Origin: Waterburya agarophytonicola KI4
GTDB lineage: Bacteria; Cyanobacteriota; Cyanobacteriia; Cyanobacteriales; Xenococcaceae
Assembly (NCBI RefSeq): GCF_020640915.1
Contig: NZ_JADWDC010000036.1
Span: 1 to 45,832, forward strand
Direction of reading: 5' to 3'
Length of the DNA stretch: 45,832 nt
Within the stretch, counting starts at the first letter, position 1, and the number at the start of each line of letters is the position of its first letter. A program made the translations under genes and the position numbers. The notes beneath the pieces are model-generated. The model worked only from the letters and a program-made list of their open reading frames with translations. It was not told the origin of the DNA and did not search any database. Shown one piece after another: positions 2,115 through 34,396 of the stretch.

Positions 2115-2134
2115 ATATTATTATATAGTAATAT
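2115..2134. promoter_or_regulatory. Operator-like palindrome, site 1 (persulfide dioxygenase operon)
   Basis: ATATTATTATATAGTAATAT is self-complementary except for one symmetric pair of positions. It lies 75 bp upstream of the persulfide dioxygenase start. It belongs to a twelve-member set with consensus ATATAACYAWATAGTTATAT and is read here as a binding site for one of the ArsR-family regulators of this window. The binding is inferred, not shown. Confidence 0.7.
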
Positions 2135-2254
2135 ACTTTTAATTTCAGGTTAAAGTCACAGATTACTCCGTCGTTTTACGGCGGACGCTGCCCTCTGCTG
2201 TGACCGTTGTCAAGATCGACATTCTAAGCTTAACATTTTCTCAAGAAAAATCAA

Positions 2255-2278
2255 TCATATAACCAAATAGTTGTATGA
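2255..2278. promoter_or_regulatory. Operator-like palindrome, site 2 (type II SQR)
   Basis: A 24-bp palindrome whose core, 2257-2276, reads ATATAACCAAATAGTTGTAT and lies 66 bp before the GTG start of the SQR gene. The outer arms TCATA and TATGA extend the symmetry. Together with site 1 it gives the divergent promoter region one site per direction. Confidence 0.72.
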
Positions 2279-2342
2279 TAAAAACAATATATAAGATTAA
2301 TTTTAAGTTTCAAACTCAATTTAAATTGACGAGGAAATTATT

Positions 2343-3704
2343 GTGTCAACATCAAGCAAGCGATCGCGCAGTGCCTCACTTTCAGCGAGATCGCCATCAA
2401 GAGAAAAAAATCCCGACGAACACTATCAAATTGTCATCGTTGGTGGTGGAGCAGCAGGAATTACCACCGCAGCCCAACTACTCAAGCAAAACTCTAAGCT
2501 GGATATTGCGATCGTTGAACCTGCTGAAAAGCATTACTATCAGCCAGGATGGACATTAGTAGGTGGTGGTATTGCACCCATAGAACAATTTGTTCGGCAG
2601 GAACAAGATGTTATTCCTAGAGGAGCAAAATGGATTCAGGATTACGTGACTGCTTTTGACCCCGATCGCAATAGTGTAACCTTAGCTCAAGGGCATGAGA
2701 TAAAATACGACTACCTTGTAGTGTGTCCTGGCATCCAGATTGATTGGCATCTAGTTAAAGGATTAAAAGAAGCATTGGGTAAGGGTGGAGTAACCAGTAA
2801 CTACTCCCAAGACTATGCACCATATACCTGGTCAACCATCAAAAACTTCCAGGGGGGTACGGCGATTTTCACCTATCCCAATACTCCGATTAAATGTGGT
2901 GGCGCACCGCAAAAAGTGATGTATATGGCAGATGACTATTTTAAAAGTAAGAGCGGAGTGGGTGTGAATACTAAAGTCATGTTTTGCACTGCGGGGGCGA
3001 AAATGTTTAGTGTTCCTGCATACAATGCAACTTTAGAAGAAGTAATTGAGAAGCGGGAAATTGCGACTAAGTTTAAACATAACCTTAAAGAAATTAAAGC
3101 CGATACCCAAGAAGCTATTTTCGATGTCACCACCGACAACGGCGTAGAAGAGGTCAGTATTCACTACGATATGATTCATGTCACTCCACCGATGAGTTCC
3201 CCTGATTTCATCAAGCATAGCCCTCTAGCCAACGATCAGGGCTGGGTGGATGTTAACAAATACACCCTCCAACACAATCGCTATCCCAATGTATTTGGCT
3301 TAGGTGATGCCTCATCCCTACCTATCTCTAAAACTGCCGCTGCTGCTCGTAAGCAGACTCCTGTAGTAGTGCAGAACCTAATTTCCCAAATGAACGCTCG
3401 GCAACTGAATAGCAAATACGATGGTTATACATGTTGTCCGTTGATCACGGGCTATCATTCGGCAATTATGGCTGAATTTGACTATGAAGGCGATCCTGCT
3501 CCGTCTTTTCCTCTCGATCCAACCAAAGAACGCTACTCGATGTTTCTGGCTAAAGCTTACGCGCTACCTTGGATATATTGGAATCGAATGCTCAAAGGAG
3601 AATCTTTTGAAGCAGATATCTTCAAGCCCATCAATCGACTATTACAAAAAGATAGCGATAAATCACCTGTTATAAAAACAGAAGAGAAAAACACTACTTG
3701 TTAA
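2343..3704 (+). CDS. sqr: Sulfide:quinone oxidoreductase, type II (SQRDL-like)
   Basis: A 453-residue flavoprotein that oxidises sulfide and passes electrons to the plastoquinone pool, acting as a peripheral membrane protein. The FAD-binding GGGAAG lies at residues 34-39 and a second FAD motif GLGDAS near 319-324. The redox cysteines are C185 in KCGGAPQK and C364/C365 in DGYTCCPLITG, the pair typical of type II SQRs, the class that includes mitochondrial SQRDL. Translation starts at GTG 2343, with GAGGA seven bases upstream. A serine/arginine-rich N-terminal extension of about 25 residues precedes the FAD domain. The gene is divergent from the persulfide dioxygenase operon, which would handle its persulfide product. 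Confidence 0.93.
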   Translation: MSTSSKRSRSASLSARSPSREKNPDEHYQIVIVGGGAAGITTAAQLLKQNSKLDIAIVEPAEKHYYQPGWTLVGGGIAPIEQFVRQEQDVIPRGAKWIQDYVTAFDPDRNSVTLAQGHEIKYDYLVVCPGIQIDWHLVKGLKEALGKGGVTSNYSQDYAPYTWSTIKNFQGGTAIFTYPNTPIKCGGAPQKVMYMADDYFKSKSGVGVNTKVMFCTAGAKMFSVPAYNATLEEVIEKREIATKFKHNLKEIKADTQEAIFDVTTDNGVEEVSIHYDMIHVTPPMSSPDFIKHSPLANDQGWVDVNKYTLQHNRYPNVFGLGDASSLPISKTAAAARKQTPVVVQNLISQMNARQLNSKYDGYTCCPLITGYHSAIMAEFDYEGDPAPSFPLDPTKERYSMFLAKAYALPWIYWNRMLKGESFEADIFKPINRLLQKDSDKSPVIKTEEKNTTC

Positions 3705-3829
3705 CAAATATTTCTAGAGTTGGTTTTTGGCGTTTAAACACCCTATTCTACCAGCATAGCTTGGCATCTTCTTCGCGCAAATACAGATAATCTTGACTAA
3801 AAAGTATAAATTTTGACAAGAACAATTAA

Positions 3830-4234
3830 CTATTGACGTAAAGTTTTGAGCATTTCCAACTGTTGACTTTGCTGTTCAAATTGAGCGGATAAAGCGTCAC
3901 AAACTAGATCGCATAACTCAAATAAGCAAGAATTGGCAATTTGATAGTAAGTATAAATTCCTTGTTGTTCGCGGGCAACCACATTTGCTTTGGTAAGCAC
4001 ATTCAAATGTTTGGAAACATTGGCTTGTCCCAAACCCGTTTCTGACACAATTTCGCTGACGTTTTTTGCTCCATTTTTCAAGCTACAGACTATTTGCAGC
4101 CGACTAACTTCAGATAAAACTTTGAAGAAGTCAGCCATCAAGCCCAATGCAGCAGGGGAAAGTTTGGTAATTCTACAATCATCAGCTTTACTGGCTAGTT
4201 TGGTTTTGGGTTTTGTACTTGCTTTACTGGGCAT
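3830..4234 (-). CDS. ArsR-family regulator, probable persulfide sensor (BigR/SqrR-like), copy 1
   Basis: A 134-residue winged-helix repressor. The recognition region GLGQANVSKHLNVL and the core LSEVSRLQIVCSL are typical of the ArsR family. Cysteines C50 (after SRLQIV) and C103/C108/C112 (NSCLFELCDLVCDAL) sit in the regions where BigR and SqrR place the two thiols that form a polysulfide bridge and release DNA. I see no ELCVCDL metal-binding box of arsenite or cadmium sensors. The N-terminus is lysine-rich. It is transcribed away from cysK, with an operator-like palindrome at 4271-4290 in front of its start, suggesting autoregulation. Sulfide control of the neighbouring SQR genes is inferred. 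Confidence 0.85.
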   Translation of the reverse strand: MPSKASTKPKTKLASKADDCRITKLSPAALGLMADFFKVLSEVSRLQIVCSLKNGAKNVSEIVSETGLGQANVSKHLNVLTKANVVAREQQGIYTYYQIANSCLFELCDLVCDALSAQFEQQSQQLEMLKTLRQ

Positions 4235-4270
4235 AAGCTTGATTTGGCAATTTAATACAGAGTTATTACT

Positions 4271-4290
4271 ATATTACTAAATGGTTGTAC
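4271..4290. promoter_or_regulatory. Operator-like palindrome, site 3 (arsR copy 1)
   Basis: ATATTACTAAATGGTTGTAC keeps the AC...GT core positions of the shared consensus. It lies 37 bp upstream of the arsR ATG at 4234, where it could overlap the promoter. Confidence 0.6.
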
Positions 4291-4327
4291 TGTATACCAA
4301 TATAACTTGCCAAGAAAGAAGCGTATT

Positions 4328-5287: not shown

Positions 5288-5301
5288 AGAAAAAAGTAAA
5301 T

Positions 5302-7917
5302 TTAAAACATAAGTTGGAAAAAGACCAAAATAAATCCACCCATTAATCCCATATGGGGCAGATTACTCCAGAAAGGACGCTGGGTAATTTTAATTAAGGG
5401 AAAGAGGCTAAGGAGAAAAACCGCTAATAAGGTCGTACCTTGCAGAAATGCAGCAACATCACTACTCCAGGTTAGAGTTGGTAAACCCACTCCACTAAAG
5501 CCAAAACTGCGAGCGATCGTGGGGATAATTTTACCAGCTTCGGTAATCGCAGCAGGGATATAATAAGCAAGGTTAAGTCCCAAGGTCATGGGCAGATAAG
5601 CATAAATGACTTTCAGATAATCTGGCATCTGGGGATCGAACAGGCGGGTTAGCTTATGGATTAGATAAGTAGTTACAAAAGGAATACTCAGCAAAATAGT
5701 AACTACAGGCAGTGAAATTAGTAAATGCTCGGAATCAATCGCTAAATCTCCCCAACCGATCCAACTGAGAATTTTGGCAGAATAGTGCATAAATACTCCC
5801 CCAAACAGCAAGAGCATCAAAGCGACTTCGGCGGGAAACCCGCGATGGTTTTCCAAGATATCCGCAGCAGGAAAGCGAAAATTAAGTTGAACCGAACGAT
5901 TGGGACAAGCCTTGAGACAAGTCATGCAGAGAACGCAATCGCGATTATCGGTTAACTGGGCTGGATGGGAGTACAGGGGACAACCACCAGTTGCTTGTCC
6001 TTCAGTGGGGAGGGCATTAGCAAAGTTAACAGTCGTTGCTTCTCCACCTTTATAACAGCCAAAAGTGCTACATTGACTACCGCACACTTGTTGAGTTGAG
6101 CGCAATTCAATGGCAGCCAGCTTGGCAAACATCCCATTCATTCCCCCTATAGGACAGAGATAGCGACACCACAGACGACGCTCATAAATTAGACTACCAA
6201 GAACCGCCCCAGCAGCAATAATAATTAATAACCAAGAGGAGAGATAGGCAGTGTGAGGGAGATCCCATAATTTTTCCCAAAGATAAATAGCTACAAAACC
6301 CAACCAAAGTACCCAAGCTCCCCATTTGTTCAACCATTTAGTTGGCCAAGGGAGCAATTTTCGCGGCCAAATCCAGAGAGAGATAGTTCTGATCCATTCT
6401 CCCGCAATCATAAAGGGACAAACCGCACACCAAAGCCGACCGATAATAGGAAATAGCAAAAGGTAAAATGGCCACCACCACGCCCAAAAGAAATTGAGGG
6501 TGATGCTGGAATCGCGAGTTTGAGGACCGATAAAACCCAGAACCGTAACGGGAATAAAAACCGCCATCATCAGTAGCCAAAACCTTTCTGGCCACCAGTT
6601 ACTGAGTAAAAACCGACGTAACCAAGGAAATTGATTGAGTAAATCGACCCGAAAGGTATTTTTAGATGATTCAACCGACCACAGTACCTGTTCGGGAATC
6701 ACAGCCTGTTCGGCAGGGGTCATGCTCGCTGCTCGTTTGAGAATGGCTGCGAGTTCGGCAATATTTTCAGGATAGTCGTAACTGAGCAAACGACGGAGAT
6801 CCGCTTGGTTGATTTCTAAAGGAGTTCGTCCTCGTTCTCGGCAAAATTTAGTCAGGAAATAACGAGTAAAATCAGGAATATCCTGTTTGCGTTGGGCTAG
6901 GGTAAAGAGTTTGATTTGATGGGCTTCAACTGCGGCAAAAGAGATTTTCTGAGGACTGGCACAAACAAGACGCACCCAACTGGCAGTTTCTCTTACTTGC
7001 TCTCCTGTTCTTTGGTTGACAATAATCCGCCCTGTTTTAAAATAAGCACTCAGACGATCTCGCTCGGACTGACTTAAGAGGTGAGCATTGTCGATTAATA
7101 ATGTACCTCTTTCTAATAATTCAATCACACCCAATTGGGATTTCTCTCGACCAAAAAGAGCATCGGTATTTAACTGACCGTTTTCTTGTGTGGGTAATTG
7201 AGCTAAGTCAATTTCGGCAAAAGGACGGTTTTTCAATCCCGAATTACCGTGAATTAAACCCGCCAAAAAGGTTTTACCACTACCAGGAGGTGCTTGTAGA
7301 ATAACTGGCTTTAAATCTGTTGCTGTTTGTCGAACCTGCTGGGCTAATTTTTGACTGGCTTTACTGCTGCCAATAACCGACTCATCCACTGGGATAGGGC
7401 GAATAAAAGATTGTAATCCTTGAATGCGTTCTTGTTCTTTAGCTGCTCGTTGGGCAAAGTAGGCTAAGTCTTGAGCGAGTAGAGAATTAATCGCTCCCTG
7501 AAAATCGGGATAGGTATTAGTAAGCTGCAAAAAGCGATCGCGTTCTAAAAACCAAATTTCACTTTTACTCAATGCTACGGCACTAGCAGGATAAATAGCA
7601 GTTTTTTCACTGTTTAGTAAAGGTACACAGCCAAAAATTTCCCCCGCACTACGGTAATTAATATGGGTTCTTCCTACTAAAGAAGAGCGATAAATTTCTA
7701 CCGACCCCCATTTAAGCAAGTAAAACCCTAACGCTTTAGTTTCCTGTTGGTAGATTTCCGTATTGGCTTCGACTTGGAAAACTTGTAAACATTGAGCGAT
7801 CGCCTCAATCGCTTTACTGCTCAACCGCCCCCAAATCCGATGAAAACTCAACCAGTTAATACATTCTTCAATTGCTGGTGCGTCTAAATTAGAAAGCTGT
7901 AAGGACTGGGTATTCAT
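5302..7917 (-). CDS. CRP-like sensor / AAA ATPase / NapH-NosR-like 4Fe-4S membrane fusion protein
   Basis: About 871 residues from the ATG at 7917; an upstream in-frame TTG at 7935 is less likely. Domains in order: a cyclic-nucleotide-binding (CRP-like) fold at about 30-135; an AAA+ region like that of sigma-54 activators, with Walker A APPGSGKT near 209-216 and Walker B LLIDNAH near 273-279; several membrane helices from about 445; CxxCP (497-501) and CxxxCP (584-589) pairs as in NapH/NosR; further cysteines at 612, 616 and 621; a ferredoxin-type CVLCMTCLKACP (661-672); and more helices at the C-terminus. The GAFTGA loop that contacts sigma-54 is missing. It probably passes electrons at the membrane under control of an effector or nucleotide, but no function is established. 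It sits between a Nudix-like gene (27 bp) and cysK (14 bp). Confidence 0.8.
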   Translation of the reverse strand: MNTQSLQLSNLDAPAIEECINWLSFHRIWGRLSSKAIEAIAQCLQVFQVEANTEIYQQETKALGFYLLKWGSVEIYRSSLVGRTHINYRSAGEIFGCVPLLNSEKTAIYPASAVALSKSEIWFLERDRFLQLTNTYPDFQGAINSLLAQDLAYFAQRAAKEQERIQGLQSFIRPIPVDESVIGSSKASQKLAQQVRQTATDLKPVILQAPPGSGKTFLAGLIHGNSGLKNRPFAEIDLAQLPTQENGQLNTDALFGREKSQLGVIELLERGTLLIDNAHLLSQSERDRLSAYFKTGRIIVNQRTGEQVRETASWVRLVCASPQKISFAAVEAHQIKLFTLAQRKQDIPDFTRYFLTKFCRERGRTPLEINQADLRRLLSYDYPENIAELAAILKRAASMTPAEQAVIPEQVLWSVESSKNTFRVDLLNQFPWLRRFLLSNWWPERFWLLMMAVFIPVTVLGFIGPQTRDSSITLNFFWAWWWPFYLLLFPIIGRLWCAVCPFMIAGEWIRTISLWIWPRKLLPWPTKWLNKWGAWVLWLGFVAIYLWEKLWDLPHTAYLSSWLLIIIAAGAVLGSLIYERRLWCRYLCPIGGMNGMFAKLAAIELRSTQQVCGSQCSTFGCYKGGEATTVNFANALPTEGQATGGCPLYSHPAQLTDNRDCVLCMTCLKACPNRSVQLNFRFPAADILENHRGFPAEVALMLLLFGGVFMHYSAKILSWIGWGDLAIDSEHLLISLPVVTILLSIPFVTTYLIHKLTRLFDPQMPDYLKVIYAYLPMTLGLNLAYYIPAAITEAGKIIPTIARSFGFSGVGLPTLTWSSDVAAFLQGTTLLAVFLLSLFPLIKITQRPFWSNLPHMGLMGGFILVFFQLMF

Positions 7918-7944
7918 AATTTTAGCATTCAACAAAAGCTTAAC

Positions 7945-10239: not shown

Positions 10240-10539
10240 TCAGGATTCTGGCTCGATCTGGCGATCGCCTTGGCTACATAAATCGAGTAAATCTAAATCG
10301 ATAATGCGGTAATAACGGCAGATACCAACTCGGCGACAAGCGACAACTCCCGCACTTTTAAGTAACTGTAAATGCTTGGAAACATTGGCTTGATTCAGCT
10401 TAGTGAGATCGCATATTTCACTGACGCTACGTTCCTCTCGACAAATCGCTTGTAAAATCCGTAAACGACTTGCTTCACTGAGAAGCTTAAAACGATCTGC
10501 CAGTTTTTCTAATTGATGGAGTTCCAGAGTCCTTTTCAT
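10240..10539 (-). CDS. ArsR-family regulator, copy 2
   Basis: About 99 residues if translated from ATG 10539, which has AAGGTG just upstream; a TTG at 10632 would add 31 residues of low complexity. The winged-helix core is LSEASRLRILQAICREE and KLNQANVSKHLQLLKSAG. Cysteines follow the SRLRIL core (C33), lie in SEIC (C43), in the wing (VACRRVGIC, C68 and C74) and near the C-terminus (LLDLC, C88). The pattern is richer than in the other two ArsR copies of this window, so thiol or persulfide sensing is likely but the pairing is unclear. It is the second gene of the operon headed by the three-cysteine SQR. Confidence 0.78.
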   Translation of the reverse strand: MKRTLELHQLEKLADRFKLLSEASRLRILQAICREERSVSEICDLTKLNQANVSKHLQLLKSAGVVACRRVGICRYYRIIDLDLLDLCSQGDRQIEPES

Positions 10540-10647
10540 CTCACCTTTGGTTATTTCAGTAATTGACGAAGTCAGAGGAACAGTTGCGGGTAAAGCCTTA
10601 CTCGTCGTCTCACGGCGGAGTCTCTCTGACAAGTAGCAGAATAATGT

Positions 10648-11979
10648 TTAACTTTTAACCACCTCTTGATTTGTATCAGTTATTTTTTGATTATCTCCTT
10701 CAGATAGTTTGAGGGATTTCAGCATCGATAAGCCAAATAACAAGCGCAATCCTAATTTTTCAAACCAAGGCATTCCCAAGCCCCAGCGCATCTTCAGCAG
10801 AAAATATTCCTCAAAGGCTGCCTTAACCCAATTCACCCAAAGTCCTCGCACTGCATAGGAATATCGTCGTTTGCCAGTAACAGGATCGGGAAGGACAGGG
10901 GCAGCAATATAAGCAATGCCAATATTGCCGTATTCGGCAAAGCAGAGAGCTTCTAAAGTCGGTTTGGTTAAAGGCGATTTAATCGCTCCCAATTCCACAG
11001 CAATATTATGTGCCACTGCTACGCCCATAGCTTCGGTCATTTGTCCACTTTTAGGTAAGCCGATGGGAACGGTAGTTTGTTCTGGCTGTTCTAAATGCAC
11101 CCCCACCCCCAAAGCATAAACAGAGGGGAAATCTGGATGTCTTTGGTCAGGTAGTACGGGAATAAATCCTTTTTCGCTAGTCAATCCAGGTACTTTCCGC
11201 AGAAACTCAACTCCCCGAAAAGAAGGGAGAATCATCGAATATTTAAAGGGAAGTTGGCAGCCGTCAGCTAAAGTAATGTTCTGTGGATCTATGTGAGTAA
11301 TTCTGGCATTGGCGATCGCCTTAATTCCCCGTTCTGCCATCAGTTCTTCCGTCAATTTTTGGGCATTTTTAATCCCTCCTACCCCTGTATGACCGATATA
11401 AGGTTCTGGGGTGACGTAGGTAATGTTTACTTTGTCTCGTATTCCCCGACGACGCAATTCCCAATCTGCCATCAAGACGAACTCATAAGCAGGACCAAAG
11501 CATCCCGTACCTGGCATTGCTCCCACTACTAAATCTCCTGGGTTTTCTAGAAATTCTAACCAAGCATCTCTCGCGTGCAGGGCATGATCGGGAGTACAGA
11601 CAGACTGGGTATATCCTCCATGAGGTCCTAATCCTGGGATTTCTTCAAAGGCTAAAGAAGCTCCTGTGGCGATCGCCAAGTAATCGTAATCAATAACTTG
11701 GGTTTCTTCGACAGTAATTTTCTTGGTTTGAGGATTGAGAGCGGTAACTTTTCCCGCTACCCATTCAATTCCCTGTCTTCGTGTCAACCGCTTTAAATCT
11801 AGTTGAATATGTTCTAGGGGGTTGAGATTTAACGCGACTCTGATTAATCCTGGGATGAAAGTAAATTGAGGTTTATCGGAAATTAAAGTAACGGTGTGTT
11901 CTTTGGGCAAATAATGCCTTAATTCATAGGCTGTGGGTAATCCTCCTAGTCCTCCTCCAATTACTACAATATTAGCCAT
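10648..11979 (-). CDS. Sulfide:quinone oxidoreductase, type I-like (three-cysteine)
   Basis: A 443-residue flavoprotein, distinct from the SQR at 2343. The FAD motif GGGLGG is at 8-13. Three cysteines, C128 (SVCTPDHA), C160 (GTGCFGPAYEF) and C346 (EALCFAEYGN), have nearly the spacing of the catalytic trio of type I SQR from Aquifex (124, 156, 347). A C-terminal amphipathic segment (residues ~380-425, WVNWVKAAFEEYFLLKMRWG) would dock it on the membrane. It would feed electrons from sulfide to plastoquinone. It heads the minus-strand operon ending in cysK, with an operator-like site at 12064-12085. Substrate could also be another reduced sulfur species; SQR-family membership is clear, exact class less so. 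Confidence 0.85.
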   Translation of the reverse strand: MANIVVIGGGLGGLPTAYELRHYLPKEHTVTLISDKPQFTFIPGLIRVALNLNPLEHIQLDLKRLTRRQGIEWVAGKVTALNPQTKKITVEETQVIDYDYLAIATGASLAFEEIPGLGPHGGYTQSVCTPDHALHARDAWLEFLENPGDLVVGAMPGTGCFGPAYEFVLMADWELRRRGIRDKVNITYVTPEPYIGHTGVGGIKNAQKLTEELMAERGIKAIANARITHIDPQNITLADGCQLPFKYSMILPSFRGVEFLRKVPGLTSEKGFIPVLPDQRHPDFPSVYALGVGVHLEQPEQTTVPIGLPKSGQMTEAMGVAVAHNIAVELGAIKSPLTKPTLEALCFAEYGNIGIAYIAAPVLPDPVTGKRRYSYAVRGLWVNWVKAAFEEYFLLKMRWGLGMPWFEKLGLRLLFGLSMLKSLKLSEGDNQKITDTNQEVVKS

Positions 11980-12063: not shown

Positions 12064-12085
12064 TATATAACCAATAAGTTATATA
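12064..12085. promoter_or_regulatory. Operator-like palindrome, site 4 (type I-like SQR operon)
   Basis: A 22-bp palindrome with perfect 8-bp arms, TATATAAC and GTTATATA, separated by CAATAA. It lies 85 bp upstream of the SQR ATG at 11979. It shows the strongest arms of the twelve-site set. Confidence 0.75.
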
Positions 12086-12213: not shown

Positions 12214-12233
12214 AAATTACTAAATAGTAATAT
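12214..12233. promoter_or_regulatory. Operator-like palindrome, site 5 (DUF302/Rieske operon)
   Basis: AAATTACTAAATAGTAATAT, with perfect inner arms ATTACTA and TAGTAAT, lies 64 bp upstream of the DUF302 start. The 317-bp divergent region 11980-12296 therefore holds one site per direction. It also holds a short inverted repeat, AACTTC and GAAGTT, at 12131-12146. Confidence 0.73.
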
Positions 12234-12296: not shown

Positions 12297-12707
12297 ATGA
12301 ATCACTTCAGTAAAGTATTAGACACATCATTTGAAGAAGCGATCGCGCAAGTAACCAACGCCCTGAGAGAAGAAGGTATGGGCATTTTGACCGAAATTGA
12401 TGTCCAAGCTGCTTTTAAAAAGAAACTGGATGTAGATTTCCGCAACTATAAAATTCTTGGGGCTTGTCATCCTCAAATTGCCTATCAAATGCTCCAAACC
12501 GATGATAAAGCAGGAGTTTTCTATCCATGCAATGTCGTCGTCCAAGAACATGAAGATGGCAGAGTTGAGGTATCGGCAGTCGATCCTTTAATGATGTTTC
12601 TGACCATTCACAGTCCTAAAGCGAAAGAAATTGCCCTCGATGCAAGTCAAAAGATGCAAAGGGTAATCGAAAGCCTTGGTTCGCCTGAATTAGTCGCTCA
12701 AAGTTAG
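12297..12707 (+). CDS. DUF302 family protein
   Basis: A 136-residue soluble protein matching DUF302: the opening SFEEAIAQVTNALREEGMGILTEIDVQ and the central LGACHPQIAYQML plus FYPCNVVVQE are typical. The family is small, widespread in sulfur- and metal-stress contexts, and without a settled function. Two cysteines (LGACHP and FYPCN) might bind a metal or sulfur. It is the first gene of the plus-strand run, just behind operator-like site 5, with an AACGAGGT ribosome-binding region upstream of the ATG. Confidence 0.82.
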   Translation: MNHFSKVLDTSFEEAIAQVTNALREEGMGILTEIDVQAAFKKKLDVDFRNYKILGACHPQIAYQMLQTDDKAGVFYPCNVVVQEHEDGRVEVSAVDPLMMFLTIHSPKAKEIALDASQKMQRVIESLGSPELVAQS

Positions 12708-12993: not shown

Positions 12994-13527
12994 ATGGAAG
13001 AAAGTCTTCCCTTAGAAAGTCCATCTATGTCACGACGGCAGTTACTCAATTTTCTCACTGGTGCAGCGATTGCTGCTACTGCTGGTGCAGCCCTGTATCC
13101 TGTAGGTAAATATTTCATCCCACCCTCTGAAGTTGGCGAAGATGGCTCGATACTGGCAAAGGATATTAACGGTAATGTTATTCCTGCCAGTCAAATTTTA
13201 GCAGAACCCCCTGAAACTCGCGCTTTGGTAGCGGGACTTGCTGGAGAACCGACCTATTTAACTATTAAAGAAGACGGTACGCTGCATCCTTGGGGCATCG
13301 TGGATAATTGCACCCATCTAGGCTGTACTTTCCCTTGGAATGAAAATGACGCTCAATTCCAATGTCCCTGTCACGGTTCTCGCTACGATGATGAAGGGAG
13401 AGTGGTAAGAGGTCCTGCTCCTCTACCTTTGCGACTGGCTCATATAAATGTTGAAGGGGATTATATTCGCATTTCTCCTTGGACTGAAACCGACCCCCGT
13501 ACAGGTGAAAAACCCTGGTGGGTTTAG
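12994..13527 (+). CDS. Rieske 2Fe-2S protein, alternative PetC of cytochrome b6f
   Basis: A 177-residue Rieske protein close in length and layout to PetC. A twin-arginine start (SRRQLLNFL) and one membrane anchor (about 17-36) lead to the flexible hinge and the lumenal head. Cluster ligands are C106/H108 in CTHLGC and C124/H127 in CPCHGSRY, with disulfide cysteines C111 and C126. The Ser and Tyr of CHGSRY are those associated with a high redox potential. The C-terminal [13 protein letters not shown] is PetC-like. A perfect AGGAGGT precedes the ATG. Cyanobacteria carry minor PetC isoforms; placement among sulfide genes suggests this one serves electron flow from SQR-reduced plastoquinone (inference). 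Confidence 0.9.
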
Positions 13528-19460: not shown

Positions 19461-19480
19461 ATATAACTATCTAGTTGTTT
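19461..19480. promoter_or_regulatory. Operator-like palindrome, site 6 (desulforedoxin-like gene / sulfur permease)
   Basis: ATATAACTATCTAGTTGTTT lies 41 bp from the desulforedoxin-like start and 30 bp from the permease start. It could control both. The conserved AAC and GTT blocks are intact. Confidence 0.68.
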
Positions 19481-20906: not shown

Positions 20907-20926
20907 ACATAACTAAATACTAATTA
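20907..20926. promoter_or_regulatory. Operator-like palindrome, site 7 (weak)
   Basis: ACATAACTAAATACTAATTA has a perfect left half but C instead of G at the conserved right-arm position. It lies between the HEAT-repeat gene and the MBL-fold gene, 31 bp before the latter. It is the weakest of the twelve sites. Confidence 0.4.
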
Positions 20927-23064: not shown

Positions 23065-23084
23065 AAATTACGATATAGTAATAT
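23065..23084. promoter_or_regulatory. Operator-like palindrome, site 8 (small membrane protein)
   Basis: AAATTACGATATAGTAATAT has perfect inner arms ATTAC and GTAAT and lies 50 bp upstream of the ATG at 23134. Confidence 0.68.
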
Positions 23085-24262: not shown

Positions 24263-25321
24263 TTAACGCACAGTACCCCGTAAAGCCTCTGCATCAATGG
24301 GTTTAATCAAATACAGAACTAACAAATCCCAAAAAATGCCAGTAATTAAAGGCAACTTACAGAAAAACTTGACTATTTTCGGTGCATTACTTGCTTCTAT
24401 CGCTTTTAACTCTTCATTGCGATCTGCACAATGTTCTAACCGTTTGAAAAACTCAGGATGATCGACATTAAGAATAGCGGGAAATGCTCTAGCTGAAGTT
24501 TCGTTAGTTTTGCGAATTACCTCGCGATCGTATTCTTGTGCATCTAAGCCGACGCTGGCATAAAAGTCTGCCCGTTCGTGTACGGTTAAGGTATGGGTGG
24601 CAAATACAGATAATAAGAAGAAACGCGCCCATAATCTACCCTTCCAACCTTGCCACATAGATTTTTGCGATCGCAATAAGGCTTTAAAGATATCTCCGTG
24701 ACGGTTTTCATCCTGACACCAGCTTTCAAACTTTTTGAACAGGGGATAAAACTGATATTCGGGATGTTTTTCTAAGTGACGATACATCAGGATATAACGC
24801 CAGTAACCAATTTTTTCAGAGAGATAGACGGCGTAAATTACCCACTCTGGTTTAAAAAATGTATAGTTGCGATTTTTAGTTAGATATCCTAAGTCTAAAG
24901 AAATATTAAAATCACTCATGGCTTTATTGAGGAAACCTGCATGACGAGCTTCATCTCGTGCCATTAGATGAAATATTTCTGCCAAAATCGGATTGCGACC
25001 TTTGAGTTTGCGGGATAACTCTTTAAATAGCAGAAAACCAGAGAATTCTGAAGTGCAAGAACGTTCCAAGAAGTCCACAAATACTCGACGGGTATTTTCA
25101 TCGATATGATCCCAAGATTGCTTGAAATCTTCATCCCGTAAAAAATGATCCCGATTATAATCCGTCTTCATCTCGGCAATCATTGCTTTTAACTCTTCCT
25201 CTTGAGAAGAGATGTCCATATTGGCGATCGCATCAAAATCCGTAGTGTAAAAACGCGGAGTCAGCAAAGTTTCTTCTGTAGAGGTTTTTTTAGTAGCGGG
25301 TTGAGAAACAGTACTAGTCAT
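24263..25321 (-). CDS. acsF: Mg-protoporphyrin IX monomethyl ester oxidative cyclase (low-oxygen paralogue likely)
   Basis: A 352-residue di-iron oxygenase that forms the fifth ring of chlorophyll. Iron-binding motifs are ERSCTSEFSGFLLFKE, MARDEARHAGF and CQDENRHGD. Length is normal. Cyanobacteria have two forms; the one clustered with a second heme oxygenase and hemN (chlA-II in Synechocystis) serves at low oxygen. The grouping here is the same, with hemF added, and an operator-like site sits in the divergent promoter (25422-25441). It is the only acsF in view, so the low-oxygen assignment rests on context. Confidence 0.9.
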   Translation of the reverse strand: MTSTVSQPATKKTSTEETLLTPRFYTTDFDAIANMDISSQEEELKAMIAEMKTDYNRDHFLRDEDFKQSWDHIDENTRRVFVDFLERSCTSEFSGFLLFKELSRKLKGRNPILAEIFHLMARDEARHAGFLNKAMSDFNISLDLGYLTKNRNYTFFKPEWVIYAVYLSEKIGYWRYILMYRHLEKHPEYQFYPLFKKFESWCQDENRHGDIFKALLRSQKSMWQGWKGRLWARFFLLSVFATHTLTVHERADFYASVGLDAQEYDREVIRKTNETSARAFPAILNVDHPEFFKRLEHCADRNEELKAIEASNAPKIVKFFCKLPLITGIFWDLLVLYLIKPIDAEALRGTVR

Positions 25322-25421: not shown

Positions 25422-25441
25422 ATATTCTTATATAGTTAAAT
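25422..25441. promoter_or_regulatory. Operator-like palindrome, site 9 (acsF / hemF)
   Basis: ATATTCTTATATAGTTAAAT has a good right half but a poor left half. It lies only 8 bp before the hemF ATG at 25449 and 101 bp from acsF. This places it over the start of the hemF transcript or promoter. Confidence 0.5.
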
Positions 25442-25448
25442 AACGTAT

Positions 25449-26513
25449 ATGAAAATTAATCGAAAATTTGTAATGAGCATTCAAGCCGTTAGTAAGGTCG
25501 TAACTAAGAATCAAAACTTACCCCCTACAGATTCAAGAGAACGGGTCAAACAATTTGTCCAGCAATTACAAGATAATATTTGCGCTAGTTTAGAACAACT
25601 CGATGGTAAAGCTAGCTTTAGAGAAGATAGTTGGCAAAGAGAACAAGGTGGTGGCGGACGTTCTCGTGTCATTAGAGATGGCAGAGTGTTTGAACAGGGT
25701 GGGGTCAACTTTTCCGAAGTTTGGGGTGATACTTTACCTCCCTCGATTTTAGTTCAACGTCCCGAAGCAGCAGGACACGGTTTTTACGCTACAGGTACAT
25801 CAATGGTACTGCATCCTCGTAATCCCTACGTTCCCACCGTACATCTGAATTATCGCTATTTTGAAGCGGGTCCCGTTTGGTGGTTTGGGGGTGGTGTGGA
25901 TTTAACTCCTTACTATCCTTTTGTCGAAGATGCAGTGCATTTCCATCAAACTATTAAACAAGCTTGCGATGTTCATCATCCCGAATATTATCCCGCTTTT
26001 AAACGCTGGTGCGATGAATATTTTTATTTAAAACATCGTCAGGAAGCACGGGGTATTGGCGGGATTTTCTTTGATTATCAAGATGGCAATAGTCCTCTTT
26101 ATTGTGGTCCCGATCCCGATGGTGCTGCTGCTGAGTACAGTAATAAAGTAGGCAAGGTATCTCGTAGTTGGTCAGATTTATTTGCTTTCGTGCAGAGTTG
26201 CGGTAATTCTTTCTTACCTGCTTATGTTCCTATTGTCGAACGCAGACAAGATACAGAATACGGAGACAGAGAGCGTAACTTCCAGCTTTATCGTCGCGGA
26301 CGCTATGTAGAGTTTAATTTAGTTTACGATCGCGGTACGATTTTCGGTCTACAAACTAAAGGACGTACTGAGTCTATTTTAATGTCCTTACCTCCTTTGG
26401 TGCGTTGGGAATATTGCTATCAACCCGAACCAGGAACACCAGAAGCCAAGTTAACAGAAGTTTTCCTCAAACTTCAAGATTGGGTTAATTATCAGTCAAC
26501 AGTTAACAGTTAA
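25449..26513 (+). CDS. hemF: Oxygen-dependent coproporphyrinogen III oxidase
   Basis: A 354-residue HemF, which decarboxylates coproporphyrinogen III using oxygen. Conserved blocks are [47 protein letters not shown] and [12 protein letters not shown] 25449 is used here; ATG 25473 (MSIQAVSK) is an alternative start. The C-terminal residues QSTVNS are encoded by a 7-bp tandem repeat that runs past the stop. It leads a plus-strand cluster with heme oxygenase and HemN. An oxygen-dependent enzyme with an oxygen-independent one in the same cluster covers a range of oxygen levels. Confidence 0.93.
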
Positions 26514-29897: not shown

Positions 29898-30104
29898 ATG
29901 ACAGAAATTGTATTTTTAGTAGAAGACGATCCAGAAGTCGGCTATACAGCTAGAGCTTTAGGAGAATCTATCTTTACTCAAGCAGAAGATATAGAAAGCC
30001 TTAAAGAAATGATTCGTGATGCGGTAGATTGTCATTTTGAAGCTGAAGAAAAACCCAAAATAATTCGCTTACATATTGTTCGCGATGAGGTTATTGCTTC
30101 GTGA
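29898..30104 (+). CDS. HicB-like antitoxin (DUF1902-like)
   Basis: 68 residues. IVFLVEDDPEVGYTARALGESIFTQAEDIESLKEMIRDAVDCHF has the partial RNase H fold of HicB-type antitoxins. A DNA-binding tail is missing, as in many short HicB relatives. It overlaps the HicA-like gene by 4 bp (GTGA). Confidence 0.78.
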   Translation: MTEIVFLVEDDPEVGYTARALGESIFTQAEDIESLKEMIRDAVDCHFEAEEKPKIIRLHIVRDEVIAS

Positions 30105-30343
30105 AGTTACCACGAGATATATCAGGTAAAGATTTAATTAAGACTCTTTCTCGCCTTGACTATCAAGTCACTCGCCAGACAGGTAGTCATATCAGATTAA
30201 CAACTCAACGAAACGGAAAACATAGTATTACTATTCCCGCACACGATCCAATCAAACTAGGAACTCTCAATGGGATTTTACGAGGTATTGGCGAGCATCA
30301 CAAACTGGATCGCGATCGATTAATCGTAATTTTGTTTGAATAG
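30101..30343 (+). CDS. HicA-like mRNA interferase toxin (YcfA family)
   Basis: 80 residues, starting at GTG 30101 inside the antitoxin stop. The dsRBD-like fold carries the catalytic histidine in RQTGSHIRLT and the following HSITIPAHDPIKLGTLNGILR. It would cleave mRNA when free of HicB. Confidence 0.86.
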   Translation: MKLPRDISGKDLIKTLSRLDYQVTRQTGSHIRLTTQRNGKHSITIPAHDPIKLGTLNGILRGIGEHHKLDRDRLIVILFE

Positions 30344-30370
30344 TATTTTAAGAAGAACTACAAAAAGCAA

Positions 30371-30403
30371 TCTCTCAATCATTTCTATAATCGGGCGATC
30401 GCA
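30371..30403. repeat. Partial copy of the 36-bp repeat downstream of the HicA-like gene
   Basis: TCTCTCAATCATTTCTATAA then TCGGG and CGATCGCA match the 3' two thirds of the unit seen at 28901-29052. The repeat family thus brackets both toxin-antitoxin pairs. Confidence 0.72.
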
Positions 30404-30418
30404 AGTTTTAAGTTCAAT

Positions 30419-30886
30419 TTATGTCAACGCTCGCAGCATCCAAGCAGTTTTTTCGTGAATACGCATTCGATCTGAAACCAATGAAGCTGTTGATTCATCA
30501 TTAGCTTCTTGAGCAGTTACTAAAACCTCACGACAGGTTTTTACCACCTGTTGATGACCTTGGGTGAGAATTTCCACCATATCTTTAGCAGCAGGAACAC
30601 CCTCGACTTCTTTAATCGAACTTAATTCAGCAAAAGACTTATAAGTACCAGGCGCGGGAACGTCTAAAGTGCGGATTCTTTCAGCAACATCATCAACCGC
30701 AGTGGCTAGTTCGGTGTAGTGTTCTTCAAACATCAAGTGTAACTCGCGAAACTGGGGACCAGTGACATTCCAATGAAAGTTATGGGATTGTAGATAGAGA
30801 GTATAGGAATCTGCTAGCAAACGTTTCAGTCCCTGGGCAATTTTGATGCGGTCTTGTTCTTTGATGCCAATATCAATAGTACTCAT
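30419..30886 (-). CDS. dps: Dps-type ferritin, DNA-protecting iron-storage protein
   Basis: A 155-residue Dps. The inter-subunit ferroxidase site is shown by [11 protein letters not shown] and [23 protein letters not shown]. It would form a 12-mer that oxidises and stores iron and guards DNA. GGAG lies before the ATG. It is divergent from psbA, with an operator-like site at 30982-31005 between them, though nearer to psbA. Confidence 0.92.
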
Positions 30887-30973
30887 ATCAATTGCTCCAT
30901 TCTAATTAGAGTGCTGAAGAATTCTCCATTATTATACGCCAACTTACAAATCTAAAAAAATATAATTTTATGC

Positions 30974-31005
30974 TTGACTTTTTATATAACCATATAGTTA
31001 AATAA
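30974..31005 (+). promoter_or_regulatory. psbA promoter elements with operator-like palindrome, site 10
   Basis: TTGACT (30974-30979) is a good -35 box, and TTAAAT (30998-31003), 18 bp downstream, is a possible -10. A 24-bp palindrome, 30982-31005, covers the spacer and -10. Its core at 30984-31003 is ATATAACCATATAGTTAAAT. A protein bound there would block polymerase, so repression is expected. The -10 assignment is tentative. Confidence 0.68.
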
Positions 31006-31058
31006 AGACATAAAGTTAAAATTGCCTTTAACAATGATTAACCTCGGAATTAAACATT

Positions 31059-32141
31059 ATGACTATATCTCTGCAAGAACGCCAAAGTAACAATCTTTGG
31101 GATAAATTTTGTAATTGGATTACCAGCACCAACAACCGTATGTATATTGGTTGGTTTGGGGTACTGATGATTCCCACTTTATTAACGGCAACTATCTGTT
31201 TTATCATTGCCTTTATTGCTGCACCTCCTGTAGATATTGATGGTATTCGCGAACCCGTTGCTGGTTCTTTACTCTATGGCAATAACATCATTTCTGCTGC
31301 GGTAGTACCTAGCTCTAACGCCATTGGGTTACACTTTTATCCCGTTTGGGAAGCTGCCTCTTTAGATGAATGGTTATACAATGGCGGTCCTTACCAGTTG
31401 ATTATTTTTCACTTTTTGATTGGTATTTTCTGCTATCTAGGTCGTCAATGGGAATTGTCTTTCCGCTTGGGAATGCGTCCCTGGATTTGTATTGCTTACA
31501 GCGCACCTGTTGCTGCTGCGACTGCGGTACTTTTGGTTTACTCTATCGGACAGGGTTCTTTTTCTGATGGTATGCCTTTAGGAATCAGTGGTACATTTAA
31601 TTTCATGTTTGTTTTGCAAGCAGAACACAATGTGCTGATGCACCCCTTTCATATGCTTGGTGTTGCTGGTGTCTTTGGTGGAGCGTTGTTTTCTGCCATG
31701 CACGGTTCTTTGGTAACTTCTTCTCTAGTAAGAGAAACTACTGAAACTGAATCCCAAAACTACGGTTACAAATTCGGTCAAGAAGAAGAAACCTATAATA
31801 TAGTTGCTGCTCATGGTTATTTTGGCAGATTGATCTTCCAATATGCCTCCTTTAATAACTCTCGTTCCTTGCACTTCTTCTTAGGTGCTTGGCCCGTAGT
31901 TGGTATCTGGTTTGCTGCGATGGCTGTATGCTGTTTTGCCTTTAACCTCAATGGTTTTAACTTCAACCAATCTGTTTTAGATGCTCAAGGTCGAGTAGTT
32001 AATACCTGGGCGGATGTTTTAAACCGTGCTGGTTTGGGAATCGAAGCTATGCACGAACGTAATGTCCATAACTTCCCCCTAGACTTAGCTAGCGGAGACA
32101 GCCAACCTGTAGCTTTAGTTGCCCCTGCTGTTCACAGCTAA
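31059..32141 (+). CDS. psbA: Photosystem II D1 protein, microaerobic D1' isoform
   Basis: A 360-residue D1 with five membrane helices. Mn-cluster ligands are all present: D170, E189, H332, E333, H337, D342 and A344 (before a 16-residue cleaved tail). Tyr161, H190, H198 and S264 are kept too. Aligned by position, it carries A80, L158 and A286 in place of Gly, Phe and Thr. These three changes are reported as the signature of D1' isoforms induced at low oxygen. It also has Q130 (low-light type) and S162 instead of the usual Pro beside Tyr161. It is a lone gene with its own terminator, next to low-oxygen tetrapyrrole genes. Confidence 0.95.
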
Positions 32142-32197
32142 TTGGTTATCAATTGCGTTCATGCTAATTTTCCTCTAACTTCCTTCTAATAATTTAA

Positions 32198-32242
32198 GCA
32201 ACCCAAGTTTTAATTACTTTAATTACTTCGGGTTGCTTTTTT
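32198..32242 (+). terminator. Rho-independent terminator of psbA
   Basis: GCAACCC (32198-32204) pairs with GGGTTGC (32230-32236); AAG and CTT extend the stem around a bulge, and a TTTTTT run follows directly. It lies 57 bp after the psbA stop. Confidence 0.88.
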
Positions 32243-32248
32243 ATCGCT

Positions 32249-32268
32249 AATTAACTATATAATTATTT
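32249..32268. promoter_or_regulatory. Operator-like palindrome, site 11 (nitronate monooxygenase-like gene)
   Basis: AATTAACTATATAATTATTT fits the consensus but has A in place of the conserved right-arm G. It lies 67 bp upstream of the ATG at 32335. Confidence 0.5.
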
Positions 32269-32334
32269 AAAGTATAATTTTGAATTAGCGATCGCTTTTA
32301 ATACTGCTATTCAACAGTTAAATAACAACATATT

Positions 32335-33411
32335 ATGACCACACTTCCACCGCTTCGTATTGGTAAATATCTTGCTCCCTACCCAATTATTCAAGGAGGT
32401 ATGGGGATTAGAATTTCTGGTGCAAATCTTGCTAGTGCTGTAGCCAATGCTGGCGGTATTGGTATTATTTCGGCAGTTTGCTTAGGACTCAATTCTCCTT
32501 ATTACCAAAAAGGTAATTTATTTAAAGCTAATCGTTTGGCATTAATCGATGAAATAACAAAAGCTCGTCAACTCAGTCCCCAGGGTATTATCGGGATCAA
32601 TGTCATGGTAGCGGTAAGGGATTACGAAACTTTAGTTCGTACTGCTGCCGAATCTGGTATCGATTTAATTATTTCTGGTGCGGGATTACCCTTGCACCTA
32701 CCTGAATATACTGCTGACTATCCCGATGTGGCATTAGTACCGATTATTTCCAGTACCCGTGCTGCTAAAGTCATCTGTCGGAAATGGGAACGTCAATATA
32801 AACGCTTACCCGATGCTTTTGTAGTGGAAAATCCCAATCGAGCAGGGGGTCATTTAGGAGCAAAATATGGAGAATTATCCAGTTCCAAACTAGAAGCCGA
32901 GCAAGTCATCCCTGAATTAGTCAACTATCTACAAAATGAATTGGGACAAGACATTCCCGTAATTGCTGCGGGAGGAATTTGGGATCGTTATGATATAGAC
33001 CGAGTATTAGCTTTGGGAGCTAGTGGAGTGCAAATCGGCACGCGCTTTATAACTACCGATGAATGCGATGCAGATCTTCGCTACAAAGAATTTCATCTCA
33101 ATGCCCGTCCCGAAGATGTGGCAATTGTCCCATCTCCTGTAGGGATGCCAGGCAGAGCTTTACACAATCAATTTGTGGAAAAAGTTTTACAAGATTCTCC
33201 AGATTTAGATAAAAAATGTCTGGCTAACTGTTTGCAAGTATGTCGCTGTCGGGATACTCAAGAAACTTACTGTATTGTTCGCGCTTTAGATCGGGCTGCT
33301 CGCGGTAATGTAGAAGAAGGTTTAATTTTTGCTGGTACTAATGCAGGACGTGCGGAAAAGATCGTCCCTGTCAAAGAGCTAATGGCAGAATTGATTGCTA
33401 ATTCTAATTAA
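32335..33411 (+). CDS. Nitronate monooxygenase / 2-nitropropane dioxygenase family FMN protein
   Basis: A 358-residue TIM-barrel flavoprotein. IIQGGMGIRISGANLASAVANAGG, INVMVA, NPNRAGGHLG, VIAAGGIWD and ASGVQIGTRF are the FMN-binding and family motifs. Near the C-terminus a cluster of cysteines, KKCLANCLQVCRCRDTQETYC, is unusual for a simple nitronate monooxygenase and could hold a metal or Fe-S centre. The substrate is unknown; related proteins act on nitronates or on enoyl thioesters (FabK-like). It is followed 5 bp later by a Nudix-like gene. Confidence 0.82.
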   Translation: MTTLPPLRIGKYLAPYPIIQGGMGIRISGANLASAVANAGGIGIISAVCLGLNSPYYQKGNLFKANRLALIDEITKARQLSPQGIIGINVMVAVRDYETLVRTAAESGIDLIISGAGLPLHLPEYTADYPDVALVPIISSTRAAKVICRKWERQYKRLPDAFVVENPNRAGGHLGAKYGELSSSKLEAEQVIPELVNYLQNELGQDIPVIAAGGIWDRYDIDRVLALGASGVQIGTRFITTDECDADLRYKEFHLNARPEDVAIVPSPVGMPGRALHNQFVEKVLQDSPDLDKKCLANCLQVCRCRDTQETYCIVRALDRAARGNVEEGLIFAGTNAGRAEKIVPVKELMAELIANSN

Positions 33412-33416
33412 ATCTA

Positions 33417-33962
33417 ATGGTAAATTCTCCAGATGACTGGCAAACTCTAGAACGTTTTGTAGAAATCCGTTCGTCTTGGCTGACTTTAATTGGTGAAAAA
33501 CTACAAGACGAACAACAACGAATATTAGATTACTGGCGAGTTGAAAAAGCTGATTCGGTGGTAATTGTTACGATACAAAGCGATCGCTTTATCTTGCCCA
33601 AACCTGCTTATCGTCCTGGTGTAGGAAAGACTACCCTGGATTTTCCAGGGGGTAGAGTTTTACCCGAACAAACAACCGTCGAGGCTTCTAAAATTATTCT
33701 CCAGCGAGAATTAGATATCAAAGAATCAGATATTACCAGTCTTGAACCTTTAAATCAAACTGGCTGGGCAATTAATAGTTCTTTTTCCAATCAAAAACTT
33801 TTCGGTTTCGTCGCCGAAATTGACTCTCAAACTATCGTTAATCCTGAGAAATTGACATCAATTACTTATATCAATACTGCCAGTGGCATCAACAATTTAC
33901 TCCAAGACCTAACTTGTCTTCAATGTCGCGCTGTGTTGTTAGAGTGGCAACAAAGTATTTGA
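33417..33962 (+). CDS. Nudix-fold protein with degenerate Nudix box, copy B
   Basis: 181 residues, close to copy A at 7945 over the full length (shared QTLERFVEIRS, EKLQD, QRILDYWRVEK, DFPGGRVLPEQTT, LTCLQCRAVLLEWQQ). The catalytic part reads SKIILQRELDIK, so this copy lacks the box Arg-Glu, one Glu and also the Gly. Hydrolysis is unlikely. Both copies lie in operator-linked units of the same island, which suggests a shared non-enzymatic role, perhaps nucleotide or redox-cofactor sensing. Confidence 0.72.
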   Translation: MVNSPDDWQTLERFVEIRSSWLTLIGEKLQDEQQRILDYWRVEKADSVVIVTIQSDRFILPKPAYRPGVGKTTLDFPGGRVLPEQTTVEASKIILQRELDIKESDITSLEPLNQTGWAINSSFSNQKLFGFVAEIDSQTIVNPEKLTSITYINTASGINNLLQDLTCLQCRAVLLEWQQSI

Positions 33963-33972
33963 TATTTCAAAC

Positions 33973-34347
33973 TTATTTCTTGGAAGGACTAAAAGCACTT
34001 AATCGTTTGAATTGATCGGCTTTTTGCTGCATCCGTTGGTACAGGCGATCGCAAACTAACTCGCATAGCTCGAAAATCATCGGGTCTTGAATTTCATAAT
34101 AAACAGCTACCCCTTGAGGTTTACGGGATAAAATTTCGGCTTCGGTAAGCATTTTGAGATGTTTGGATAAATTTGCCTGTCCCAAACCAGTAGCTTCCCC
34201 TATCTCACTGACATTCATCGCTCCTTCTCTCAAGCAGCTTAAGATTTGCAGCCGACTAATTTCTGATAGCACTTTAAAATAATCGGCAACTGGGGCAAGA
34301 TATTCGGTGGGTTTTGCTGTCTTGTCGCGAGAGTCAGTTTTGGGCAT
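33973..34347 (-). CDS. ArsR-family regulator, probable persulfide sensor, copy 3
   Basis: About 124 residues from ATG 34347; an in-frame ATG at 34401 would place the operator inside the gene and adds a hydrophobic stretch unlike the family. The core is LSEISRLQILSCLREG and GLGQANLSKHLKMLTEA. Cysteines C38 (after SRLQILS), C95 and C99 (FELCELVCDRL) match the arrangement of copy 1, to which it is clearly related. A good operator-like palindrome (34377-34396) lies 30 bp upstream. It stands next to cydB and convergent with the Nudix copy B. Confidence 0.84.
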   Translation of the reverse strand: MPKTDSRDKTAKPTEYLAPVADYFKVLSEISRLQILSCLREGAMNVSEIGEATGLGQANLSKHLKMLTEAEILSRKPQGVAVYYEIQDPMIFELCELVCDRLYQRMQQKADQFKRLSAFSPSKK

Positions 34348-34376
34348 GGACAAAATAAAGATAATTTTTATATTAT

Positions 34377-34396
34377 ATATAACTATATAGTATTCT
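34377..34396. promoter_or_regulatory. Operator-like palindrome, site 12 (arsR copy 3)
   Basis: ATATAACTATATAGTATTCT has an intact AACTATATAGT core. It lies 30 bp upstream of the proposed arsR start, a position fitting autoregulation. Confidence 0.65.

Follow-up and report, generated by a model that had tools for sequence, protein, structure and literature searches.

A palindrome shared by sulfide and low-oxygen genes of Waterburya agarophytonicola KI4 is the probable operator of SuoR-type ArsR repressors

The nearest described counterpart of the genes considered here, which lie in a 45,832-nt stretch of the cyanobacterium Waterburya agarophytonicola KI4 (contig NZ_JADWDC010000036.1 of assembly GCF_020640915.1; this whole stretch is hereafter the window), is the suo locus on plasmid pSYSM of Synechocystis PCC 6803, where SuoR binds and represses at the suoS/suoC region, as reported in the available part of a review (PMC4307280). 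SqrR of Rhodobacter capsulatus, BigR and YgaV share with the ArsR proteins of the window the ArsR fold, a conserved cysteine pair and an association with sulfide genes, and RexT of Anabaena is, like them, an ArsR-type sensor, in this case a cyanobacterial redox sensor. Grim and Dick had noted sulfide:quinone oxidoreductase (SQR) genes near arsR and low-oxygen psbA and saw in this a hint of linked regulation; in the accessible part of their text the words 'motif', 'promoter' and 'regulon' are absent (PMC5061849). Here we describe a 20-bp palindrome, with the consensus ATATWACYAWWTRGTWATAT, that recurs before genes of both kinds in the window and is very probably, as judged from sequence comparison, the operator of SuoR-type ArsR/SmtB repressors that would be released by sulfide or persulfide and would control sulfide and low-oxygen genes together.

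A preliminary description of the window had claimed twelve such palindromes, with first bases at 2115, 2257, 4271, 12065, 12214, 19461, 20907, 23065, 25422, 30984, 32249 and 34377. All are present at these positions, and the column counts given for them are exact: column 9 is A and column 15 is T in 12/12, column 6 is A in 11/12, and columns 7 (C) and 14 (G) are kept in 10/12; the A of column 1 and the T of column 4 are likewise kept in all twelve. Their placement between genes also holds, with 0/12 overlapping a listed gene in a window of which 6,057 of 45,832 bases (13%) are intergenic when the start of arsR3 is taken as 34347. A symmetrised matrix was built from the twelve window sites, with scores expressed in bits, and for the held-out score each site was left out of the matrix with which it was scored, to which only the remaining 11 contributed; 40 further stretches of this genome, 619,126 bases in all, served as background. 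The sites, as candidate operators, are given below with these scores and with those of the equivalent positions in the relatives G016, G008 and G004.

2115–2134: before the persulfide dioxygenase gene, which leads a dioxygenase-phosphatase-TauE run on the minus strand; held-out 23.5, reached by 0 background positions; G016 24.7, G008 22.8
2257–2276: before SQR1; held-out 22.5; G016 21.7, G008 21.8
4271–4290: before arsR1 (putative autoregulation); held-out 16.2; at the same place in G016 (19.6), G008 (25.3) and other relatives
12065–12084: before the SQR2-ArsR2 run (suoS-suoR orthologs); held-out 16.6; match in the Synechocystis suoS-suoC region 20.9
12214–12233: before the DUF302 gene (suoC ortholog) and the Rieske petC run; held-out 24.2; G016 21.8, 181 bp before petC
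19461–19480: before YedE-type sulfur permease genes; held-out 18.8; G016 23.9, G008 13.1, G004 13.1
20907–20926: weak, doubtful site before an MBL-fold hydrolase gene; held-out 6.9, reached by 96 background positions
23065–23084: before a small open reading frame and a pentapeptide gene; held-out 19.9; G016 16.8 before the pentapeptide gene
25422–25441: between the divergent acsF2 and hemF2; held-out 15.2; site in 10/10 non-window hemF2 and 0/19 other hemF
30984–31003: before the D1' psbA, with a divergent ferritin-like gene opposite; held-out 23.3; near-relative D1' 4/5, standard psbA 0/23
32249–32268: before a nitronate-monooxygenase-like gene; held-out 18.1; G016 22.9
34377–34396: before arsR3; held-out 16.5; at the same place in G016 and G004, 21.2 each

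Eleven of the twelve sites are beyond chance and the one at 20907 is not, which trims the claim of twelve by one: the held-out scores of eight are reached by no background position and those of three by a single one. In G004, where the ortholog of the gene at 20907 comes after the permease genes, no site of at least 11 bits lies directly upstream of it. The preliminary description had named frequent matching of the matrix to random DNA as what would speak against it, and the background stretches do not match in the manner of these 11 sites. In a scan of the whole window the 12 top-scoring positions are exactly the 12 sites, and the next, of 12.3 bits, lies within hemN. With the full matrix, the window holds 12 matches of at least 14 bits, 11 of them of at least 18, and the 619-kb background a single one of at least 14 bits (17.0, at C29:72185). 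A pattern search of the whole genome with up to two mismatches gave 11 places, 8 of them on this contig, which makes up 0.9% of the genome; the pattern being drawn from these same sites, this is a test of location only. With up to three mismatches there were 43 places against 37 for a reversed control, and weak matches therefore mean nothing, while a looser pattern with W flanks was uninformative (297 places, control 209). A match of 12.9 bits at C96:77263 was rejected as a target, as it falls within a 205-aa frame.

The SQR2-ArsR2-Tll0287-DUF3122 / DUF302 block of the window matches the suo region of pSYSM in the same order, with identities of 63% to SuoS, 65% to SuoC, 68% for the DUF3365 protein, 41% for the DUF3122 protein and 49% (90 residues) to SuoR. 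The 117-bp suoS/suoC intergenic region contains a single match to the matrix, ATACAACTATGTAGTTATAT, of 20.9 bits, with the next best in 17 kb at 4.2, and the recognition-helix core QAN(V/L)SKHL is common to ArsR1, ArsR2, ArsR3 and SuoR. What the window shares with suo is thus an ArsR repressor, sqr and DUF302 targets, the gene block and the palindrome. Synechocystis has two divergent gene pairs, whereas here the predicted operator precedes about ten units, among them D1', acsF2/hemF2, a Rieske gene and another two arsR paralogs; none of the window's proteins matches SuoT. A plasmid search with SQR2 does list pSYSM, which is not among the matches listed in the plasmid searches with ArsR1 (40 of 185) or SQR1 (15 of 217).

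Unlike SqrR, for which the available part of the literature gives the site ATTC-N8-GAAT, the window has another motif and an apparently displaced second cysteine; as ATTC-N8-GAAT differs from the consensus, SqrR was rejected as owner of the motif, and in the window that site has one match only, inside a gene at 33696. ArsR1 and ArsR2, the two that were scanned, score 41.0 and 37.3 bits on the NCBIfam BigR equivalog against a cut-off of 155. RexT differs in both its motif, ATTCG-N15-CGAAT, and its vicinal cysteine pair, according to the part of PMC13421787 available, and no ATTCG-N15-CGAAT box is found in the window. Across 111 ArsR1 homologs, Cys50 is present in 102, Cys108 in 111 and Cys112 in 107.

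The site is retained in relatives and across more distant cyanobacteria. For arsR1, 29 of the 57 genomes gave a match, and the 300 bp upstream of the best arsR locus in each were scanned: a site of at least 12 bits is present in 16 of the 29 and one of at least 16 bits in 13. Dinucleotide shuffles of the same upstream regions, the type of control proposed in the preliminary description, gave a mean of 0.19 at 12 bits (at most 3) and 0.025 at 16 bits. In G016 the site stands before the dioxygenase, SQR1, ArsR1, petC, YedE, pentapeptide, acsF/hemF, psbA, nitronate monooxygenase and arsR3 genes; in G008 the cluster is rearranged and the site is kept at psbA, arsR1, SQR1, the dioxygenase, YedE and petC (about 375 bp ahead of the last).

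The count in named genomes covers the best 80 of 388 cyanobacterial loci, with L095 being the G019 contig and ArsR3 having no row. A first count used 250 bp before the extrapolated start and a site of at least 12 bits, and missed some gene-proximal sites (for example at arsR of L170 and L171); a recount used 350 bp before each match. In the first count the site was present for SQR1 in 9/10, the dioxygenase in 21/34, SQR2 in 4/5, DUF302 in 2/2, psbA in 2/3, acsF in 3/6, heme oxygenase in 3/7, YedE in 2/4, the phosphatase in 3/6 and the pentapeptide gene in 3/16. At that threshold it was absent from the named loci of TauE (0/30), CydA (0/6), HemN (0/8), the rhodanese Rhod2 (0/8), Usp (0/3), PetC (0/2), ArsR2 (0/3), nitronate monooxygenase (0/1) and MBL2 (0/1). 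The recount gave 26/35 for the dioxygenase and 1/30 for TauE, with the rows besides those of ArsR1 and Rhod2 otherwise the same. These rows are not independent because divergent pairs have one site in common. A single stretch of Nostoc carries sites before the dioxygenase, arsR, D1' psbA and SQR2.

Paralogs of one family differ in whether they carry the site. It precedes 11/11 genes for HemF at least 81.8% identical to that of the window (10/10 without the window gene), and 0/19 other hemF genes. For psbA, we take residues A80, L158 and A286, from the D1' literature, as diagnostic of D1': among near relatives the site is found before 5/6 genes with all three marks (4/5 without the window gene) and 0/23 standard ones, three of which have marks that were not read. 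In more distant genomes it precedes 1/3 genes with all three marks, the stop-ridden L368 being set aside, and 0/17 standard genes, in one of which residue 286 was not seen (both counts come from the 22 scored loci of 30); a further standard set gives 0/1. A second distant D1' set with all three marks gives 2/5, with two more at 11.6–11.8 bits; distant non-standard D1 genes score 17.1, 25.9, 14.1, 10.0 and, twice, 11.9, and the remaining far or unusual copies at most 11.8. SQR1 has the site in 8/21 with the window gene left out, and PetC less than 55% identical in 0/9. None of 500 column-permuted palindromic matrices reaches any of the four positive counts (hemF2, D1' psbA, SQR1 and PetC). The motif also emerges de novo from data excluding the window: in 40 de-duplicated upstream regions of dioxygenase and SQR1 genes the top palindromic dyad is TTAC-N6-GTAA (17 against 0.29 expected), which the control sets do not have among their first six. 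Another element, GCGATCGC, ranks within the first six in 5/6 sets, controls included; it is the repeat common in cyanobacteria.

Several clusters elsewhere deserve separate mention. In Planktothrix, arsR, a pentapeptide gene and an acsF2/heme oxygenase/hemN operon are clustered at L172, where the sites score 14 and 18 bits, and at L124, where the score is 11 bits; the 10-kb flanks of these two loci hold no match to SQR1 or SQR2 of the window. The endosymbiont of Epithemia clementina (L322, L146) has an open acsF2 frame and arsR, with putative operators of 19.5 and 20 bits, and a psbA remnant (L368) full of stops. Positions 7631–10065 of L075 (G000:C58) hold a second hemF2-heme oxygenase copy with putative operators of 18.9 and 12.5 bits, which is likely a further target; its divergent acsF match spans 68 residues only.

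The genes of the window, identified by Pfam and NCBIfam matches, are listed below; they include three arsR genes, the number of ArsR proteins previously claimed.

1339–2040, minus: persulfide dioxygenase-like MBL protein, in a run with a phosphatase and a TauE exporter
2343–3704, plus: SQR1, sulfide:quinone oxidoreductase family
3830–4234, minus: arsR1, ArsR/SmtB regulator (HTH_5, E 2.9e-12)
10240–10632, minus: arsR2, SuoR ortholog (HTH_5; 49% identity with SuoR across 90 residues; gene neighbours as in suo)
10648–11979, minus: SQR2 (63% identity to Synechocystis SuoS)
12297–12707, plus: DUF302 protein (65% identity to SuoC)
12994–13527, plus: PetC Rieske paralog (52% identity to the C7 copy, taken as housekeeping)
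24263–25321, minus: acsF2, oxidative cyclase isoform (TIGR02029, 520 bits)
25449–26513, plus: hemF2, with heme oxygenase and hemN downstream
31059–32141, plus: psbA with a D1'-type product (A80, L158, A286)
33973–34347, minus: arsR3 (likely start ATG at 34347; a longer TTG frame overlaps the putative operator)

In alignment, the window psbA has A80 and L158 instead of G80 and F158. The sulfide, acsF/hemF and D1' targets named in the preliminary description stand as candidates, with two adjustments: the site at 34377, which lies downstream of cydB, would serve arsR3 and not the bd oxidase, whose genes are upstream of arsR3, and the site at 12214, described as preceding the Rieske run, has the suoC-like DUF302 gene first and then that run. 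The PetC paralog lies in an extended run with other genes, of which some are sulfur-related. The ferritin/Dps-like gene at 30419–30886, divergent from the D1' psbA across the palindrome and in the same arrangement in G008, may be a further target. The cydA of the window (35487–36425 / 36480–37832 region) matches its Pfam profile over 165–418 only, with the N-terminal third absent, and a UPF0236-type transposase gene starts just upstream of it; the bd oxidase is probably broken.

The idea of a shared sulfide and low-oxygen operator, as originally claimed, draws support from its conservation across the phylum, the paralog contrasts and the match in the SuoR promoter. Mechanistically, a dimer of ArsR2, the SuoR ortholog, or of its paralogs ArsR1 and ArsR3 is predicted to sit on the palindrome. 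SuoR repression is reportedly relieved by sulfide and by arsenite, a finding attributed to Nagy in 2014, and we take arsenite to be a SuoR inducer. On the precedent of SuoR and SqrR, release here would likewise follow the entry of sulfide, with persulfide (or arsenite) modifying conserved cysteines of the repressors. This would derepress SQR1, SQR2, the dioxygenase, the sulfite exporter, the permease and the regulators themselves, along with D1', the Rieske protein, acsF2, hemF2, heme oxygenase and hemN, as a set suited to sulfidic, oxygen-poor water. Among 13 psbA promoters selected for a site of at least 11.6 bits, the window and near relatives included, 9 have a TTGAC that starts 6–10 bp upstream of the palindrome (mean 0.09 in letter-shuffled flanks), and TTGACT abuts the site at 12214. 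At the D1' promoter the palindrome would span from just after the -35 box to about the position of the -10 box, and a bound dimer would block RNA polymerase because it would fill this spacer and about the -10 box.

Expression data come from Synechococcus PCC 7002, in which polysulfide raises psbA up to 8.6-fold and petC 5.6-fold, copies unspecified, and hydrogen peroxide lowers those transcripts (available part of PMC12466478). On its plasmid pAQ7 a petC paralog near sqr follows a DUF2892 gene that has a site of 12.5 bits, higher than any other in 11 kb; that sqr has no site.

A number of observations weigh against an ArsR operator of this breadth. Six D1'-marked genes have no 12-bit site (L178, L355, L359, L386, L383 at 11.8 and L390 at 11.6); PetC is uneven, with 5/20 among proteins at least 65% identical, the window gene left out; and AcsF has the site in 5/30 loci from 23 named genomes. 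In the D1' (4) and hemF2 (10) sets TTAC-N6-GTAA is not in the top six, which hold other, mostly AT-rich, dyads. ArsR1-like places in the named loci have a site of at least 12 bits in 24/82 (28/82 in the recount), and the rhodanese controls (Rhod2) rise to 2/8 in the recount. As for the sensing cysteines of BigR, which we take to be positions 42 and 108, the first aligns with Cys50 and the second with Ser116, Cys112 being one helical turn away. A variant that has one half-site in common with the palindrome, but another centre, occurs in some relatives. Binding, repression and inducer are predictions for ArsR1–3, with sequence as the material from this organism. For a 20.5-bit match at C26:4405 no sensible target can be seen. 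The source for binding by SuoR is the available part of the review (PMC4307280), not the original study, and in the PCC 7002 paper psbA also appears with the genes going down (available part of PMC12466478).

As to the variants themselves, L005, L007 and L011 have other ArsR homologs with an upstream variant that retains the right half-site, GGTAATAT, around the centre TGTG, and a third variant, CTGTATAGCTATAT, precedes a fourth ArsR at G000:C3:1202. The match at C26:4405 (L078, G000:C26) follows a frame for a membrane protein close to the end of its contig, and any target would be beyond that contig; it was not counted among the targets and remains unexplained.

The alternative that survives best, though we regard it as improbable, is that ChlR, a MarR-type low-oxygen activator, owns the acsF/hemF and D1' sites, with the ArsR operator confined to the sulfide genes. 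The two gene sets do overlap, both regulons taking in acsF2, heme oxygenase, hemN and D1' psbA: Synechocystis ChlR activates chlAII-ho2-hemN, and a variant of the protein binds at the psbA1 promoter (PMC4500134, available part). ChlR is, however, an activator with an Fe-S cluster and another motif, TTMCC-N3/4-GGWAA (PMC13421787, available part), of which no box occurs in the window or in 36 checked upstream regions; with the published motif different and these scans empty, it was rejected as motif owner. A search of the genome with two MarR models gave no clear ChlR, those matches that were read by eye being Crp-like, SufR or ArsR, with frames of 56 and 241 aa unassigned, and a single matrix fits sulfide and tetrapyrrole promoters alike.

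Slightly less probable again is binding by some other low-oxygen regulator, with the arsR genes as ordinary targets that happen to carry a site. A candidate encoded in the same sulfide block is the 877-aa protein at 5302–7935, which has cNMP-binding, sigma-54-activator AAA and 4Fe-4S (ferredoxin-like) membrane parts. Its role is puzzling because cyanobacteria are not known to have sigma-54. Its AAA domain resembles those of sigma-54 activators, which are not known to bind between -35 and -10; moreover, the motif lies in a Synechocystis promoter reportedly bound by SuoR, and in Planktothrix and Nostoc arsR adjoins the sites.

That the sites are operators of SufR is very unlikely, although this iron-sulfur sensor has a box, CAAC-N6-GTTG, that shares the AAC-N6-GTT core spacing with them (PMC13421787, available part). 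On the matrix, the SufR box that this genome carries before sufR reaches 1.1 bits, and column 4 is T, not C, in 12/12, for which reasons SufR was rejected as owner; several sites read TTAC-N6-GTAA, and the single CAAC-N6-GTTG of the window, at 6331, is intragenic. That AT-rich palindromes arose by chance between genes is an explanation we accept for 20907 and for the three-mismatch genome matches; for the other 11 sites it is rejected by the held-out scores, has the contrasts between paralogs, the matrix permutations and the conservation of the site in distant genomes against it as well, and deserves next to no credence.

An ArsR operator thus being our preferred reading, the control known from SuoR and SqrR would be much widened, the new element being one operator across D1', chlorophyll/bilin, Rieske and sulfide genes; in the cyanobacterial literature searched, with subscription papers mostly outside its scope, we found no report of an operator common to sqr, D1' psbA and tetrapyrrole genes. 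A wider proposition, whose chances we judge evenly balanced, is that one ArsR operator across cyanobacteria would swap D1', the Rieske protein and micro-oxic chlorophyll/bilin enzymes together with sulfide oxidation, replacing an absent ChlR, and that at least three paralogs with different cysteine sets would recognise this one operator and integrate sulfide, arsenite and perhaps redox signals at each promoter. One AcsF locus with the site belongs to a Cyanothece strain that is presumably close to ATCC 51142. According to a review, ATCC 51142 possesses the micro-oxic enzymes and no chlR, and that review already proposes that D1' helps in sulfide-rich conditions (PMC4500134, available part); for species in this position the operator offers an answer as to how these enzymes are controlled. 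More generally, the control of the switch between water- and sulfide-driven photosynthesis in cyanobacteria is largely open, its genetics being described as little known in the available part of a mat study (PMC8651085). A defined operator makes the hint of Grim and Dick testable in engineerable strains, and provides a marker by which cyanobacteria adapted to sulfide, and the target genes in them, can be sought in sequence data.

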